From positions 1 to 58,728 of the forward strand of contig CALVXO010000008.1 in the NCBI GenBank assembly GCA_944371325.1: 58,728 bases of DNA. The letters run 5' to 3'. The first letter of the stretch is position 1; every line of letters begins with the position of its first letter. The position numbers were made by a program, and so were the translations under genes. The notes beneath the pieces are model-generated. The model worked only from the letters and a program-made list of their open reading frames with translations. It made no database searches and had not been told where the DNA came from. Origin of the DNA: an uncultured Bacilli bacterium (GTDB taxonomy: Bacteria > Bacillota_I > Bacilli_A > RF39 > UBA660). Positions 2,827-52,719 of this stretch are shown one piece after another.

Positions 2827-3437
2827 TGCTATATCCTGAGACAATTAATAATTTAATTGAGTGTTATAAAAAATTTCCAGGAATAGGTGAAAAATCTGCT
2901 GAACGAATGGCTTTATACACGTTAGAACTAGATCAAGAAGTAATTGATCTTTTTGCGCAATCTTTAAAAGATTCTAAAAAAAATATTAAAAGATGTAAAA
3001 AATGTAATAATTTATCTGAAACAGATATTTGTCCAATATGTGGTAGTGAAACAAGAGATAAAAAAGTTATCTGTGTTGTTGAAGAACCAAAAAATGTTTT
3101 TCAATTTGAAAAAATAGGATCATATAATGGTTTATATCATGTATTAGATGGATTAATTTCACCATTAGAAGATATTAATCCAGAAGATATTAATTTAGAT
3201 AGTTTATTAGATCGAATTAAGAATGATAACGTTGAAGAAGTCATTATTGCAGTTAAACCTAGTGTTGAAGGTGAAACAACTGCATTATATATTTCAAAAA
3301 TATTAGAAGATAAAAATGTTACAATATCTAAAATTGCTCATGGTGTACCTATGGGAGCAGATATGGATTATGTTGACGCCTTAACTTTAGAATTAGCGTT
3401 ACAAGAAAGAAAAAATATAACTAGTCATACTGAATAA
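2826..3437 (+). CDS. recR: Recombination protein RecR
   Basis: RecR loads RecA through RecFOR at gaps. The protein (203 aa) shows an N-terminal helix-hairpin-helix (KFPGIGEKSAERMAL), a C4 zinc finger (CKKCNNLSETDICPIC), a Toprim domain (VCVVEEPKN, later VEGETTALY) and the C-terminal GVPMGADMDYVD Walker-B-like segment. It is translationally coupled to ybaB. Confidence 0.96.
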   Translation: MLYPETINNLIECYKKFPGIGEKSAERMALYTLELDQEVIDLFAQSLKDSKKNIKRCKKCNNLSETDICPICGSETRDKKVICVVEEPKNVFQFEKIGSYNGLYHVLDGLISPLEDINPEDINLDSLLDRIKNDNVEEVIIAVKPSVEGETTALYISKILEDKNVTISKIAHGVPMGADMDYVDALTLELALQERKNITSHTE

Positions 3438-3469
3438 TATTAATTCATAATTTTTTATTGGTGAAGAAT

Positions 3470-3658
3470 ATGTTTAAAAAATTATTTAATTTAATCAAAA
3501 GAATTGTTATTAGTGCTTTTGTTTTATATGGATATAATTTATTAGTAACACCAATAAATTTAATAATACCAATTAATATAGTAACAGTATCTTTATTAAC
3601 TATTTTTGGCCTACCGGCTTTATTTTCATTAATCATAATATTAATTGTAGTTTTTTAG
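3470..3658 (+). CDS. bofA: BofA-like pro-sigma-K processing inhibitor
   Basis: A 62-aa membrane protein with two hydrophobic stretches. Its C-terminal pattern (PINIVTVSLLTIFGLPALF) matches the conserved end of BofA, which holds the SpoIVFB protease inactive in the forespore outer membrane until the sigma-G checkpoint. It lies downstream of recR, as in Bacillus. ATG 3470 follows GGTGAAG (3460-3466); GTG and TTG codons lie further upstream in frame. At this length the call rests on the C-terminal motif plus synteny. Confidence 0.75.
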   Translation: MFKKLFNLIKRIVISAFVLYGYNLLVTPINLIIPINIVTVSLLTIFGLPALFSLIIILIVVF

Positions 3659-11804: not shown

Positions 11805-13508
11805 ATGTATAAAAAGCACAAAGGTTTTACATTAATTGAATTATTAGCAGTAATTATTATTTTAGCAATAGTAGCTTTAATAGCTACACCAATAATATTA
11901 GATGTGGTGGAAGATGCAAGAATAACAGCTGGTAGATCAGAAGCAAATATGATATTAGGTGGAATAAATAATTATTGTGCTAGTGAAGATATGAAATATC
12001 AATTAGATAATAGTTATAAAAGAATATGTACATCAAGTATGGACGCAAATAATGTAAAAGATATGGTTAATTTAGGAAATGCAACAATAGATAAAATAAC
12101 ATATAATGGATCTAAATTAACTGAATTGGTTATAACAAGCAATAATCATAAATTTACATTATGTCCAAGTGGACAATTTGCAACGGATGATGAAGGTTGT
12201 CCAAGAGACCCTAATTCTTTAATTACAAAATTATTAGGACAATATAAAGAAGGCGAAACAGCAGGATTAGTAAAAGATAGTACAAATCCAAATTTATATT
12301 ATTATACTGGAAGTAATGAAGAAGTTGGTAATAACTTTTTATGGTATGGAGGCCACCAATGGAGGGTATTAGAATTTGATGTGAGTGCTAATGCTGTAAC
12401 ATTAATAAACCAACAACCATTAACAGCTATTCAACCAGCAAGTGCAGTTGCAGTATGGACAACTCAAGAGGAATATGAATCAAGTTATATCAACACATGG
12501 TTAACTGATTATTTTTGGAATAGTTTAGATAGTAGTATTCAAAAAAATATATTAGATAGTACATTTAATGTAGGAATATATACAGATATAGACGAAATTA
12601 CGACAACTCAAAAAGTAGGATTATTAGATGAGGAGCAATATAAAAGGGCAGGAGAAGCTAATTCATTCTTAGATATAAAAGATTATTTTTGGTTAGGTAA
12701 TAGATATAGTTCGTCTAGCGTTCGCTACGTCTATTACAATGGCAACCTCAGCAACCTTAGTCCGTCGAGCAGTTACGGCGTGCGTGCAGTTATAAAAATT
12801 TCTGATATAACCATCATCGGAGGAGATGGTACTCTTGCAAGTAATTATCAAGTAGGAAATAAAGCGACAAATACAGATAATGTTCAAGTAGGAGAATATA
12901 TCAATGTACCATATAGTGGAAGTGATAGTGCATGTGGAAGTGATAATATGTGTACATTTAGAGTGGTAAGTAAAGATAGTAATAGTATTAAAGTAGTACT
13001 AAATGGATTACTTCCAACAACAAGTAAATATGGAAGTTCAACAACAATAAGTACAAGTCATACAATATATACACCACTTAATACATTTGCTGAAGGAATA
13101 AGTGACATATATCGATATACAGGCAAAAAAACATTTTATATAGGAGATTATCCATCAACTGCTACAAATTATAAAGATGTACAAGATGAAACATTGGAAG
13201 CAAGTGTTGGATTACCAATAGTGGGAGAGATGTTCAGTGGAAATGACATTGATTTAAGTACATCAAGTATCAAAACGTTTGTAGATGTAAATACAATAGA
13301 AAACCCAACTACATCAGATTACTATTGGACAATGAATAGATATAGTTCGTCTGACGTTCGCAACGTCAATTACAATGGCCTCCTCCTCGACCTTAGTCCT
13401 TCGAACAATAGCGGCGTGCGTGCAGTTATATATCTGAAGTCAGGGACTTCAGCCATAACCTTCACTGGAGGTGAAGGTACTCCAAATTCACCATATGTAT
13501 TACAATAA
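11805..13508 (+). CDS. DGR target 1: prepilin-like protein with two variable C-type-lectin-like domains
   Basis: 567 aa. A type IV prepilin leader (KG before FTLIELLAVIII, then a single hydrophobic helix) suggests cleavage by a prepilin peptidase and display at the surface or on a pilus. Two related modules follow, each with a motif like HQWRVLEF or CTFRVVSK and ending in a GVRAVI segment typical of DGR formylglycine-generating-enzyme/C-type-lectin-fold domains. Residues 301-328 (VR1) and 513-540 (VR2) match the template repeat at 13603-13688, with differences mainly at template adenines. AGGAG (11785-11789) is 15 nt from ATG, somewhat far. A paralogue with two more VRs lies at 51076. The ligand is unknown. 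Confidence 0.93.
   Translation: MYKKHKGFTLIELLAVIIILAIVALIATPIILDVVEDARITAGRSEANMILGGINNYCASEDMKYQLDNSYKRICTSSMDANNVKDMVNLGNATIDKITYNGSKLTELVITSNNHKFTLCPSGQFATDDEGCPRDPNSLITKLLGQYKEGETAGLVKDSTNPNLYYYTGSNEEVGNNFLWYGGHQWRVLEFDVSANAVTLINQQPLTAIQPASAVAVWTTQEEYESSYINTWLTDYFWNSLDSSIQKNILDSTFNVGIYTDIDEITTTQKVGLLDEEQYKRAGEANSFLDIKDYFWLGNRYSSSSVRYVYYNGNLSNLSPSSSYGVRAVIKISDITIIGGDGTLASNYQVGNKATNTDNVQVGEYINVPYSGSDSACGSDNMCTFRVVSKDSNSIKVVLNGLLPTTSKYGSSTTISTSHTIYTPLNTFAEGISDIYRYTGKKTFYIGDYPSTATNYKDVQDETLEASVGLPIVGEMFSGNDIDLSTSSIKTFVDVNTIENPTTSDYYWTMNRYSSSDVRNVNYNGLLLDLSPSNNSGVRAVIYLKSGTSAITFTGGEGTPNSPYVLQ
12704..12789 (+). repeat. DGR variable repeat VR1
   Basis: Aligned without gaps to the TR at 13603-13688. 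I count 14 differences, 10 at TR adenines. The four others (TR 13623, 13626, 13633, 13653) are shared with VR2 and point to TR change. The constant 3' end GGCGTGCGTGCAG is identical to the TR. The repeat is about half G+C inside an A/T-rich gene. Confidence 0.93.
12810..12830 (+). other. Hairpin 20 nt downstream of VR1
   Basis: ACCATC (12810-12815) pairs with GATGGT (12825-12830). Equivalent hairpins follow the other three VRs with changed but still pairing stems. A hairpin just past the VR is needed for efficient target recognition in the BPP-1 phage DGR, so the same role is inferred. Confidence 0.6.
13340..13425 (+). repeat. DGR variable repeat VR2
   Basis: Second VR of target 1, aligned to TR 13603-13688. 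I count 17 differences, 11 at TR adenines. Non-adenine differences are at TR 13623, 13626, 13633, 13653, 13663 and 13671. The 3' end GGCGTGCGTGCAG is retained. It encodes residues 513-540. Confidence 0.92.
13434..13478 (+). other. Two hairpins downstream of VR2
   Basis: CTGAAGTC/GACTTCAG (13434-13452, loop AGG) is followed by ACCTTCAC/GTGAAGGT (13458-13478, 5-nt loop). Both stems are perfect 8-bp pairings. The first recurs after VR4; the second recurs after every VR with stem changes on both arms. Confidence 0.65.
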
Positions 13509-13534: not shown

Positions 13535-13858
13535 GTATAAACGAAGAAAAGACACACCTTGCCGATGAAAAGGGCAAGGTGAGGGGATATGGGTGTAAGG
13601 CTATATAGTTCGTCTAACGTTCTCAGCGTAAACAACAATGGCAACCTCAACAGCAATAGTCCGTCGAACAGTAACGGCGTGCGTGCAGATTCCTTTTAAA
13701 CTGAGATTTATATGACCAAGGTTATGTAAATAGAAGCACTAGGAAACAAGCCTTATTCCCTAGGTATAAACCCTAAAAATATTAGTGATAGTACAACTAG
13801 AATAAAAGTGGTTTAGTAGAGTAAAATCGAAAAATCGCTTTTTCTTTTGTATTTTTTT
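13535..13858 (+). ncRNA. Candidate DGR template RNA region (no protein gene)
   Basis: This 13509-13917 intergenic stretch holds the template RNA. A possible promoter is TTACAA (13500-13505) and AATAAT (13523-13528), 17-bp spacer. A perfect 9-bp hairpin (CACCTTGCC/GGCAAGGTG, 13555-13581, no T-run) precedes the TR at 13603-13688. Downstream are a CTAGG/CCTAG stem (13739-13763) and a weak GAAAAA/TTTTTC stem followed by T-rich sequence (13829-13858), a likely terminator. DGR RNAs need the sequence between TR and RT to prime cDNA synthesis. RNA ends are inferred. Confidence 0.6.
13603..13688 (+). repeat. DGR template repeat (TR)
   Basis: An 86-bp near-copy of VR1-VR4, outside any gene, between target 1 and the RT operon. 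Its central part is a run of AAC/AAT (Asn) codons if read in the target frame, the design that gives maximal amino-acid choice under adenine mutagenesis. It ends in GGCGTGCGTGCAG, identical to all four VRs. It differs from all four VRs at 13623 (T versus G) and 13626 (G versus A). Confidence 0.95.
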
Positions 13859-13868
13859 GAATAAACAC

Positions 13869-13900
13869 TTGACAACGTGTGTGTGTGTGTGTGTGATAAT
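13869..13900 (+). promoter_or_regulatory. RT-operon promoter with a (GT)9 spacer
   Basis: A perfect -35 TTGACA (13869-13874) and a 5/6 -10 GATAAT (13895-13900) are 20 bp apart. The spacer is almost wholly nine GT units (13877-13894). The start of transcription would be near 13907, only about 11 nt before the GTG start. Loss of one or two units would give spacers of 18 or 16 bp, near the optimum. Slippage could therefore switch expression. Confidence 0.7.
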
Positions 13901-13917
13901 ATTATCTAGGTGGTATT

Positions 13918-14328
13918 GTGAGATTAGTTGATTTAAGAAATGAATTAAAAGAAGAATATAAAGATGTAGTTATATTTATGAGATATGGTAATTTTTATCG
14001 GGTATTTGATGATGATTGTTATATTGTAAGTGGATTATTTGGTTATAGAATATATGATAATAAAACAGGTTTTCCTATATCTGAATATAATAAAGTAAAA
14101 GAGGTATTAGATAAAAATAATATTAGCTATATATTTTATAATATATGTGAAAGTATAAAAGAATTAAATAGTTATGATCTAGTATTGAATTATTATAAAA
14201 ATAATTTTTATAAAAAGGATTTAATTAATATATTAATAGAATATGATGTTATAAATGAATTAGAAAAAATATTAAGATTAATTGATAAAGATAAGTTAAA
14301 TAAATTAAGAAAAAAGTATGAAAGATAA
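13918..14328 (+). CDS. DGR accessory protein with MutS domain I-like fold (MSL)
   Basis: 136 aa, GTG start after AGGTGG. The segment VIFMRYGNFYRVFDDD (residues about 18-33), followed by GFPISEYNKVKEVL, resembles the mismatch-contacting N-terminal domain of MutS (FFRxGDFYExF...). MutS-like proteins have been reported as DGR accessory genes. The rest is helical and Lys-rich. It overlaps avd by 11 nt. Its role, perhaps handling cDNA/target heteroduplex, is inference. Confidence 0.75.
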   Translation: MRLVDLRNELKEEYKDVVIFMRYGNFYRVFDDDCYIVSGLFGYRIYDNKTGFPISEYNKVKEVLDKNNISYIFYNICESIKELNSYDLVLNYYKNNFYKKDLINILIEYDVINELEKILRLIDKDKLNKLRKKYER

Positions 14329-14659
14329 ATTTTATATAATAATTGAAGTTAAGAAAACTATTAATTATATAAATAAAATTATAGTTAATTATCCTAAGGT
14401 AGAATATGTATTAAAAAATAATATTGAGTTAAATCGTTATAAGTTATTAGAATATTGTTATAAAGCTAATATTTTAAAGGATAATAGGTTAAATTATCAA
14501 AAGGAAATAATAATAATTATAAGGATGATTGATTATTATTTTTATTTAAGTTATTTAAATAAATTAATTAATAAAAACAAATATGAAAGTATTAGTAATT
14601 ATTTGTTAAATATAACTAAATATGTTTATGGGTGGATTAGAAGTGAAAAGAGTAAATAA
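14318..14659 (+). CDS. avd: DGR accessory variability determinant (Avd-like)
   Basis: 113 aa, all-helical and basic. NYPKVEYVL near residue 25 and the C-terminal ITKYVYGWIRSEK match the Avd four-helix-bundle pattern (PK.. near helix 1, GW at the end). Avd forms a pentamer that binds the RT and the template RNA. It overlaps both the MutS-like gene and the RT. Confidence 0.8.
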   Translation: MKDKFYIIIEVKKTINYINKIIVNYPKVEYVLKNNIELNRYKLLEYCYKANILKDNRLNYQKEIIIIIRMIDYYFYLSYLNKLINKNKYESISNYLLNITKYVYGWIRSEKSK

Positions 14660-15620
14660 TTTATATAATCAATTATTTGATATTGATTTTATTTTAAATA
14701 CTTATAAAATTATTAAAAAGAATACAAAAAATAAAAATAAATTAGAAAAGTTTGAGGAAAATTTATCGATTAATTTAATTGATATTAAAGATAAAATAGG
14801 TAAGAATATTGATAAATATAATTTATTTATGATTTATGAACCTAAAGAAAGATTAATATTAAGTTTAAATTTAAAGGATAAAATCATTAATCATATGGTT
14901 GGATATATTTTATTTGATGTTTTAGAAAAGAGTTTAATTGATAGTAATGTAGCTGTTAGAAAAAACAAAGGTACTAGTTATGGTATTAAGTTAATAAAAA
15001 AATATATTAAAGAATTAAACTATAATTATTATTGTTTAAAGATTGATATTAAAAAGTATTTTTATAGTATTAATCATAATATTTTAAAAGATTTATTAAA
15101 TAAAAAAATAAAGGATAAATTATTTTTAGATATTGTTTATAAAATAATTGATAGTACTAATAGTGATTATATATTTGAATATGCAAACAAACATAATATA
15201 AATTATTTAAAAAAAGGATATGGATTAAGTATTGGTAATTTAACTAGTCAAATATTAGGTATATTTTATTTAAATGATTTAGATCATTATATTAAAGAAG
15301 AATTAAAAATAAAGTATTATATTAGATATATGGATGATATGGTATTATTTCATAAGAATAAAGATTATTTAAAATATTGTTTAGATAAAATTATAATTTA
15401 TTTAAAAGAATATGATTTAGAATTAAATAACAAAACTATTATAACTAAAAATAGTTTATGTTTTTTAGGTTATCGATTTTATAATAAAAAAATTAAAATA
15501 TTAAGTAAAAATAAAAGAAGAATATATAAAAAATTAAGAATATTAAAATATAAAGATTATAACAAATATATTAAATCATTAAGTAGTTATTATGGTTATT
15601 TTAAAGTACAGAAGTATTAA
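14643..15620 (+). CDS. DGR reverse transcriptase
   Basis: 325 aa. RT motifs in order: KIDIKKYFYSI (catalytic Asp), GLSIGNLTSQ, where DGR RTs have (I/L)GxxxSQ instead of the usual QGxxxSP, YIRYMDDMVLF (YxDD), and a LGYRF thumb-side motif. It copies the TR RNA with errors at adenines. GTG 14643 was chosen because GGTGG at 14631-14635 is 7 nt upstream; an in-frame ATG at 14622 would deepen the avd overlap. The gene is very A/T-rich. Confidence 0.95.
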   Translation: MKRVNNLYNQLFDIDFILNTYKIIKKNTKNKNKLEKFEENLSINLIDIKDKIGKNIDKYNLFMIYEPKERLILSLNLKDKIINHMVGYILFDVLEKSLIDSNVAVRKNKGTSYGIKLIKKYIKELNYNYYCLKIDIKKYFYSINHNILKDLLNKKIKDKLFLDIVYKIIDSTNSDYIFEYANKHNINYLKKGYGLSIGNLTSQILGIFYLNDLDHYIKEELKIKYYIRYMDDMVLFHKNKDYLKYCLDKIIIYLKEYDLELNNKTIITKNSLCFLGYRFYNKKIKILSKNKRRIYKKLRILKYKDYNKYIKSLSSYYGYFKVQKY

Positions 15621-51052: not shown

Positions 51053-51075
51053 ATTAATAATAGGAGATGATAATA

Positions 51076-52719
51076 TTGAAAAAAGCTTTCACTTTAGTTG
51101 AATTATTAGGAGTGATTATTGTACTAGGAGTAATAGCTTTAATAGCATTTCCTATAGTAAATAAATCAATAAAAACTAGTAAAGAAGATTCTTTAAATAG
51201 TATTATAAAAACTATTGAAAAAGCTGCTGAAGAGTATGTAGTTCGTGAACATATGGGATATACAACATCATATGATAAAGTTAATCTAGATGAATTAATT
51301 GCAAAAGGTTATTTAAAAGATAATATAATTAATCCAGTTACTAATGATAAAATGAATGGTTGTGTTGTTTATAAATGGCATGATGATTATAATCAATATA
51401 AATATGAATATCAAGATCCATGTACAGTAAAAACTTTAATTGGAACTTTATTAGGACAATATAATGAATCTAATACAACAGGGTTAGTAAAAGATAGTAC
51501 CAATGAAAATTTATATTATTATACAGGAACTAATGAAGAAGTAAGTAATAATTTTTTATGGTATGGAGGCCATCAATGGCGAGTATTAGAGTTTGATACA
51601 AGTGCTAATACATTAACATTAATAACTCAGCAACCATTAACGGCTATTCACCCAGCAAGTGCAGTATGGGAGTCACAAGAAGCATATGAATCAAGCTATA
51701 TTAACACATGGTTAAATGAATATTTTTGGAATAGTTTAGATAGTAGTATACAAAGTAATATTAAAGATAGTACATTTAATGTAGGAATATATGATAATGT
51801 AAGTGAAATAACAACAGTTCAAAAAGTAGGATTATTAGATGAAGACCAATATATAAGAGCTGGAAGTACAGATCATTTCTTGGATATAAAAGATTATTGG
51901 TGGTTAGGAAATAGAGCTGATTCGTCTAACGTTCGCAACGTATACTACAATGGCGACCTCCGCAGCGATAGTACTAGGGCTGCGTACGGCGTGCGTGCAG
52001 TTATAAAAATATCTGATATAACCATCACCAAAGGGGATGGTACTCTTGAGAACAATTATCAAGTAGCAAACAAAACAACGAATACAGATAATGTTCAAGT
52101 AGGAGAATATATCAATGTACCATATAGCGGAAGTGATAAAGCTTGTGGAGAAGATAATATGTGTACATTTAGAGTGGTAAGTAAAAATAATGACGGTATC
52201 AAAGTTGTATTAAATGGATTGCTTCCAACAACAAGTGCATGGGCAGATAGTGCAAGTGATAATATAACAACAAACGATTTAATATATACGAATGTATTAA
52301 ATGGATTTATAGAAAATATAGATAGTGAATATATAACAACAGGAACATATGGAGTAGGAATGTATGCAATTGGAAATAGTTATACAGTACCACAAAGTAC
52401 AACAATAACTGCAAGTATTGGATTACCAACAGTGGGAGAGATGTTCAGTGGAAATGATATAGATTTAAGTACATCAAGTACCAAAACATTTGTAGATGTA
52501 AACATAATAGAAAATCCAACAATATCAAGTTACTATTGGATAATGAATAGGTCTAGTTCGTCTAACGTTCGCAACGTCATCAGCTATGGCCACCTCAACT
52601 TCGATAGTCCGTCGGGCAGTTACGGCGTGCGTGCAGTTATATATATGAAGTCAGGGACTTCAGCCATAACCTTCTCCGGTGGAGAAGGTACTCCAAATTC
52701 ACCATATATATTAAAATAA
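51076..52719 (+). CDS. DGR target 2 (distal): prepilin-like protein with two variable domains
   Basis: 547 aa, paralogue of the target at 11805. Prepilin leader KKA before FTLVELLGVIIV (Ala instead of Gly at -1), a hydrophobic helix, then the same two modules (HQWRVLEFD..., CTFRVVSK...). VR3 encodes residues 283-308 and VR4 residues 495-520. TTG 51076 was chosen as AGGAG (51062-51066) lies 9 nt upstream; the in-frame ATG 51067 abuts that site. No TR or RT lies nearby, so it must be served in trans by the cassette 37 kb away. Confidence 0.92.
   Translation: MKKAFTLVELLGVIIVLGVIALIAFPIVNKSIKTSKEDSLNSIIKTIEKAAEEYVVREHMGYTTSYDKVNLDELIAKGYLKDNIINPVTNDKMNGCVVYKWHDDYNQYKYEYQDPCTVKTLIGTLLGQYNESNTTGLVKDSTNENLYYYTGTNEEVSNNFLWYGGHQWRVLEFDTSANTLTLITQQPLTAIHPASAVWESQEAYESSYINTWLNEYFWNSLDSSIQSNIKDSTFNVGIYDNVSEITTVQKVGLLDEDQYIRAGSTDHFLDIKDYWWLGNRADSSNVRNVYYNGDLRSDSTRAAYGVRAVIKISDITITKGDGTLENNYQVANKTTNTDNVQVGEYINVPYSGSDKACGEDNMCTFRVVSKNNDGIKVVLNGLLPTTSAWADSASDNITTNDLIYTNVLNGFIENIDSEYITTGTYGVGMYAIGNSYTVPQSTTITASIGLPTVGEMFSGNDIDLSTSSTKTFVDVNIIENPTISSYYWIMNRSSSSNVRNVISYGHLNFDSPSGSYGVRAVIYMKSGTSAITFSGGEGTPNSPYILK
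51921..52000 (+). repeat. DGR variable repeat VR3
   Basis: Aligned to TR 13609-13688. I count 10 differences at TR adenines and 9 elsewhere. Two of the latter (TR 13623, 13626) are common to all VRs. The other seven are clustered at TR 13661-13672, where VR3 reads ACTAGGGCTGCG instead of CCGTCGAACAGT. The 3' end GGCGTGCGTGCAG is intact. Confidence 0.9.
52021..52041 (+). other. Hairpin 20 nt downstream of VR3
   Basis: ACCATCACC/GGGGATGGT with loop AAA, one mismatch in nine pairs. Same spacing from the VR end as the hairpin after VR1. Confidence 0.6.
52554..52636 (+). repeat. DGR variable repeat VR4
   Basis: Aligned to TR 13606-13688. I count 10 differences at TR adenines and only three elsewhere (13623, 13626, 13653), all places where the TR itself seems to have changed. 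It is therefore a clean record of adenine mutagenesis. Encodes residues up to 520 of target 2. Confidence 0.93.
52646..52689 (+). other. Two hairpins downstream of VR4
   Basis: TGAAGTC/GACTTCA with loop AGG (52646-52662), then ACCTTCTCC/GGAGAAGGT with loop GGT (52669-52689), a perfect 9-bp stem. The second differs from its VR2 counterpart on both arms and still pairs. Confidence 0.65.

Follow-up and report, generated by a model that had tools for sequence, protein, structure and literature searches.

The closest described counterparts of the promoter analyzed here are spacer repeats that control surface structures. In Haemophilus influenzae, a TA dinucleotide repeat lies between the -35 and -10 elements of the bidirectional hifA/hifB promoter, for which switching has been documented, and in Neisseria meningitidis the -35/-10 spacer of porA contains a poly-G run whose length sets the transcript level (PMC3899988). 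Diversity-generating retroelements (DGRs) with Avd and MSL accessory proteins are also known (PMC10053308; PMC8144416). In the literature searched, neither a repeat-controlled reverse transcriptase (RT) promoter of a DGR nor any work joining DGRs with slipped-strand mispairing was found, and the titles and abstracts retrieved for DGRs and phase variation described nothing on the control of a DGR.

The window, that is, the whole stretch of 58,728 nucleotides analyzed, derives from a gut-type bacterium. Like the known Avd/MSL DGRs, its element has an RT, an Avd protein, a template repeat (TR), adenine-biased variable repeats (VRs), and a MutS domain I-like MSL protein; unlike them, its RT operon appears to have a GT-tract promoter of its own. 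The original prediction, that this promoter follows the same logic as those of the Haemophilus fimbriae, agreed with the data as to the dinucleotide repeat in the core-promoter spacer, the 2-bp change per slip, the variation in length between species, and the fimbrial or pilin context. The two systems differ in what is controlled: the hifA/hifB repeat controls the surface structure itself, whereas here it would be MSL-Avd-RT, the mutator that rewrites a pilin-like protein. The porA repeat is further removed, being a mononucleotide run changing in 1-bp steps before an outer-membrane protein gene, in contrast to GT units, 2-bp steps, and a mutator operon. By analogy, the tract should work in the manner of the hif and porA spacer repeats.

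The DGR and its probable promoter

An RT, an Avd-type accessory protein, and TR/VR pairs differing at TR adenines were all found in the window, which contains a complete DGR. All features given below lie on the forward strand. The RT (14622-15620; YMDD) matched PF00078 (E = 4e-19) and phrog_1423 (E = 2e-75). It is preceded by avd, the accessory variability determinant (14318-14659), which matched phrog_3206, "Avd protein of DGR" (E = 1.1e-9), and PF22296 (bAvd; E = 1.7e-6, below the cutoff), and by msl (13918-14328), the first gene of the operon, which has a GTG start and encodes the MutS domain I-like protein (PF01624; E = 1.9e-6, over the cutoff). Upstream lie the TR region (about 13579-13693; repeat family D1) and a target gene for a type IV pilin-like protein with N_methyl and DUF6273 matches (11805-13508; VRs at 12680-12794 and 13316-13430); a second, remote target (51067-52719) has VRs near 51921 and 52575. 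The mismatches of the four VRs to the TR were mainly at adenines (e.g., 10 at adenines and 1 other in a 50-base core), from which it was deduced that the system has worked. Elsewhere in the same genome, a second DGR-like RT (contig C19, 14788-15741; L023), 41% identical to the first, is preceded by an Avd-like reading frame; no GT tract was present in the 500 bases upstream of this RT.

The promoter site is located directly upstream of the msl-avd-RT operon of this genuine DGR, and the predicted layout of TTGACA, AC, (GT)9, and GATAAT at 13869-13900 proved exact. The -35 element TTGACA (13869-13874) is followed by the bases AC and by the (GT)9 tract (13877-13894), which accounts for 18 of the 20 spacer bases, and then by the -10 element GATAAT (13895-13900) and the Shine-Dalgarno sequence AGGTGG (13908-13913). 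On this evidence, a tandem repeat lies between the -35 and -10 elements of a probable promoter. The last five bases of the tract, TGTGT (13890-13894), fit the Gram-positive extended -10 motif TRTGn (PMC2613000) and are supplied by the tract at any length. By the rule that transcription starts at a purine 5 to 7 nt from the -10 element (PMC4245973), the start is predicted at the A at 13908, 7 nt past the -10 element, with a leader of ~10 nt; this would place the Shine-Dalgarno sequence at the extreme 5' end of the message.

An intrinsic terminator hairpin (13804-13842; arms at 13804-13814 and 13832-13842) with a T-rich tail to about 13859 stops about 10 bases short of the -35 element. The ~59 bases between this terminator and the start codon hold TTGACA, GATAAT, and the Shine-Dalgarno sequence in that order, and the latter and the start codon keep a nearly fixed distance from the promoter across relatives. 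Across eight species, 98.9% of the base-pair cells of the hairpin were paired, compared with 53 to 72% in slid controls, and compensatory changes were observed at two pairs. The hairpin resembles a terminator for the TR RNA, whose 3' end is proposed to lie here. Since a covarying terminator directly upstream means that the msl-avd-RT operon needs its own promoter, a promoter at the tract is very likely. The idea that mutagenesis itself is under stochastic control would thus hold for the protein arm, MSL-Avd-RT, and not for the TR RNA, because the latter appears to end at the upstream terminator.

Length of the tract among relatives

Nine species of the genus with RTs at least 75% identical were picked by RT protein similarity and not by pattern, so the promoter was no search criterion. 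All nine (G000, the window's own genome, among them) shared the layout TTGACAAC, GT tract, GATAATATTA, with TTGACA and GATAAT both invariant. Nine units and a 20-bp spacer were found in G000, G015, G016, G006, and G017, ten units (22 bp) in G014, and four units (10 bp) in G007. Interrupted tracts were found in G012 (GT4-GA-GT5; 22 bp) and G003 (GT7-GA; 18 bp). In two species of genus g121 (G247 and G137; RTs 51 to 52% identical to that of the window), the terminator and a perfect TTGACA were followed by GT7 or GT4 and TATTAT, the spacers being 15 bp with GT7 and 9 bp with GT4; in genus g31, GT6 stands in the same layout at a DGR whose RT is deleted. Homologous tracts thus range from 4 to 10 units. 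The identity of the GT repeat is conserved and its length is not, the steps within the genus being even (2 bp). A fixed spacer would be expected to hold its length and let its sequence drift, and a repeat that is kept while its length changes is unlike such a spacer.

Repeat number differs among relatives between conserved flanks, though nine units are shared by five species. These include near pairs (RTs of G000 and G015 96% identical, those of G006 and G017 98% identical), which implies either that slippage is slow or that nine is the favored state; the recurrence of nine units argues against fast drift in length. The interrupted tracts of two species would also slip less. Loss of mismatch repair was considered as a source of slippage and rejected, as 15 of 18 genomes have MutS_V and 17 have MutL.

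Tract length was related to the integrity of the DGR. Pure GT runs of 7 to 10 units were present in all eight DGRs for which both an intact RT and a TR were verified, while runs of 4 to 6 units were present in all four decayed ones, in which the RT (G005, G017:C20, and G182) or the TR (G007) was lost. Fisher's test, with shared ancestry ignored, gave a P value of 0.002, and a rank test with G012 and G137, of unclear integrity, counted as intact gave 0.0095; since the species are related, both values are descriptive. The GT tract seems, from this comparison, to be maintained as long as the DGR works. All 11 RT-intact loci have a perfect -35 element even though their spacers are mostly outside 16 to 18 bp, whereas two RT-deleted copies carry mutations in it (TTGGCA in G005 and TTGATA in G017:C20); the element would thus seem to be in use at least part of the time.

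In the decayed copies of G017:C20 (L026, 1-250) and G005 (L018/L083), the start of msl is fused to the last 35 to 42 residues of the RT, and a GT4 tract is found together with the mutated -35 element. The decayed G017 copy has a spoVT/AbrB-like gene as its neighbor, which is also the arrangement in the window; the intact G017 DGR lies elsewhere. The G007 locus (L076, about 3270-3590) has lost the TR and still holds the RT, avd, msl, and a VR-bearing target.

Rarity of the tract

The statement that this was the only clear dinucleotide tract of its length was borne out, as (GT)7 or longer was found nowhere else in the 1.57-Mb genome; shuffles of the window gave an expectation of 0 for (GT)6 or longer. 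In a census of 450 kb of the window's genome (24% GC), the runner-up dinucleotide run was (AT)6; tri- to hexanucleotide repeats all fell short of the 5 or 4 copies set as the minimum. Within 18 genomes of the genus, (GT)7 or longer was confined to this promoter and one phage-tail-gene contig in G006; this last run, a (GT)14 on G006:C78, was rejected as a further DGR tract as it sits in a phage tail region. In a 386-genome family sample, TTGACA followed by (GT)5 or longer occurred in 5 genomes, a lower bound because the pattern was strict, and 4 of the 5 occurrences were at DGR msl promoters. The sequence TTGACAAT(GT)5 in G172 was rejected as an ordinary 16-bp promoter of an unrelated gene. A pattern scan of 84,980 species returned eight loci of the genus and one unrelated chance match without a GT tract. 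The exact pattern was absent from the viral contigs searched, and the 21 matches to a looser pattern in viral contigs were all unrelated.

Spacer length and the extended -10 element

In the upstream regions within 450 kb of this genome, with one -10 mismatch allowed, 21 TTGACA/TATAAT-like promoters with spacers of 16 to 17 bp were found versus ~0.3 expected (nine with 16 bp and 12 with 17 bp; one further promoter had 18 bp). The tract promoter alone had 20 bp as its primary spacing, and a first consensus scan misses it only because that scan covered spacers of 16 to 18 bp. TGn is carried by 12 of the 21 well-spaced promoters, and a tract of seven GT units would combine a 16-bp spacer with TGn and so fall into the strong class that is most frequent in this genome. 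For nine units, the prediction had been weak or off. Judged against the genomic norm of 16 to 17 bp, the spacing is indeed weak; "off" was not sustained, because the tract always supplies a TGTGn extended -10 element, so that nine units are probably "low." Elsewhere, spacers of at least 18 bp are common among TGn promoters (PMC2613000), and the extended -10 element supplied by the tract may make this promoter tolerant of spacer length.

Repeat tracts in sister genomes

Poly-G tracts in coding regions mediate phase variation, for example in Campylobacter surface genes. Runs of this type were found in DGR targets of related genomes, unlike the situation in the window. Several sister genomes (about 25% GC) contain G9 to G14 runs, and in most of the sixteen poly-G loci examined, the run was near the open-frame start of genes for pilin-like members of the target family (L180 to L193 in G016, G006, and G003, at about codon 10; e.g., 2123-2136 in L190). 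Of the 14 gene starts reread, 13 have an ATG at 24 to 54 bases before the run. In-frame and out-of-frame lengths were both found: G9 or G12 led to products of 336 to 587 residues in three genes, and G10, G11, G13, G14, and one disturbed G12 led to a stop after about 15 to 24 residues. Two poly-G genes of G006, which also carries a (GT)9 promoter, hold VRs matching the TR of G006 with 1 to 3 nonadenine and 7 to 10 adenine differences. Two TTTA repeats immediately precede a TGCTACAAT extended -10 element: (TTTA)13 in G008 (L079, 7860-7911), where it lies before a DGR target gene, and (TTTA)8 in G003:C26 (L164, 985-1016). The phase-variation layout of the poly-G pilin-type genes makes slippage-type control in the genus probable. 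As no such poly-G or TTTA runs are present in the window's genome, they were taken as context rather than proof. At a different DGR, in G004 (L014, 423-431), a G9 run lies near the start of msl; the frame from the upstream ATG meets a TAA just past the run, and msl goes on in another frame.

Alternative explanations

A constitutive promoter, with TGTGnGATAAT alone giving low, steady RT expression and the rest of the tract a microsatellite kept by slippage that purges interruptions and has little effect on output, was judged rather unlikely. It leaves unexplained why TTGACA is invariant in RT-intact loci and lost in two RT-deleted copies, why the genome holds no comparable microsatellite elsewhere, and why the tract shrinks upon DGR decay. 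It does fit the presence of TRTGn at every tract length, the share of TGn among the well-spaced promoters of this genome (12 of 21), the tolerance of TGn promoters for long spacers (PMC2613000), and the predominance of 20- to 22-bp spacers at intact DGRs. This last range would also be the working length of a fixed, regulated long-spacer promoter, in which a regulator or supercoiling realigns the elements and alternating GT serves as a flexible sequence prone to Z-DNA. MerR-type promoters use 19- to 20-bp spacers, and a fixed length would be consistent with the 20 bp of five species and with the alternating purine-pyrimidine sequence of the tract. However, the spacers of relatives range from 9 to 22 bp, and the alternation is broken by GA interruptions. 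The AC(GT)9 spacer shows no dyad for a MerR-type operator, and by eye no MerR-like gene adjoins the operon, the sole adjoining regulator gene being the spoVT/AbrB-like gene downstream; such a promoter was therefore deemed distinctly unlikely. A palindromic operator was rejected because the palindrome GATAATATTATC was not conserved among the homologues of the genus.

A role of the tract in RNA or translation, as a leader element, a part of the TR RNA, or a frame switch, instead of as a promoter spacer, appeared most improbable. In genus g121, a reading frame does cross the tract into msl, but the covarying terminator parts the tract from the TR RNA, and the -35, -10, and Shine-Dalgarno sequences flank the tract at promoter distances. 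In-frame stops lie between the tract and the start codon in all nine members of the genus, for which translational switching was rejected on this ground. Very unlikely, too, was a self-accelerating hypermutation switch, in which a slip would raise MSL-Avd-RT, MSL would interfere with mismatch repair, and slippage would rise further at the operon's own promoter. This proposal takes MSL as a lone MutS mismatch-recognition domain with Arg for the usual Glu (FYR for FYE). MSL of the window and its homologues have GNFYR or GNFYK versus GDFYE in the genome's own MutS, so that the Phe of the mismatch contact motif is kept and the Glu is replaced by a basic residue. If the proposal were true, the poly-G runs of sister-species targets would slip more, DGR-made mismatches would escape repair, and one slip would start both the rewriting and the phase variation of targets.

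Proposed mechanism and implications

The best-supported reading, and one that we regard as fairly probable, is that the core promoter of msl-avd-RT contains, in (GT)9, a contingency-type repeat that confers phase variation. Replication slippage would add or remove GT units and thereby shift the -35 element relative to the -10 element in 2-bp steps. With nine units (20 bp), sigma-A would probably act mainly via the extended -10 element, TGTGn-GATAAT, and transcription would be low; with seven (16 bp) or eight units (18 bp), it could also make use of the perfect -35 element, and a high level of transcription would be expected. Avd and RT would then be made in different amounts by different subpopulations, whose pilin-like surface proteins would in turn be rewritten at different speeds. 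The original prediction of a phase-variable switch is favored by the promoter itself (very likely), the 2-bp steps between species, the genomic norm of 16 to 17 bp, and the shrinkage of the tract on decay. The anatomy of the site, the constancy of repeat identity under variable length, the distinctness of the promoter, and the relation of tract length to the integrity of the DGR are shown by the data, whereas we infer slippage within populations, the expression levels, and the effect on mutagenesis. Because nine units recur, some tracts are interrupted, and MutS and MutL are present, confidence in phase variation was kept moderate. The GT repeat in the promoter of the DGR mutator is real, length variable, and apparently selected.

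Little is settled about how DGRs are kept from mutating a useful surface protein all the time. If a slippage-prone promoter sets the dosage of the RT, most cells of a population would diversify slowly and a few quickly, and stochastic control would act on the mutator rather than on the antigen. Together with the poly-G runs in the DGR targets of sister species, this would amount to chance control at two levels, one stacked on the other, over a single family of pilin-like proteins.
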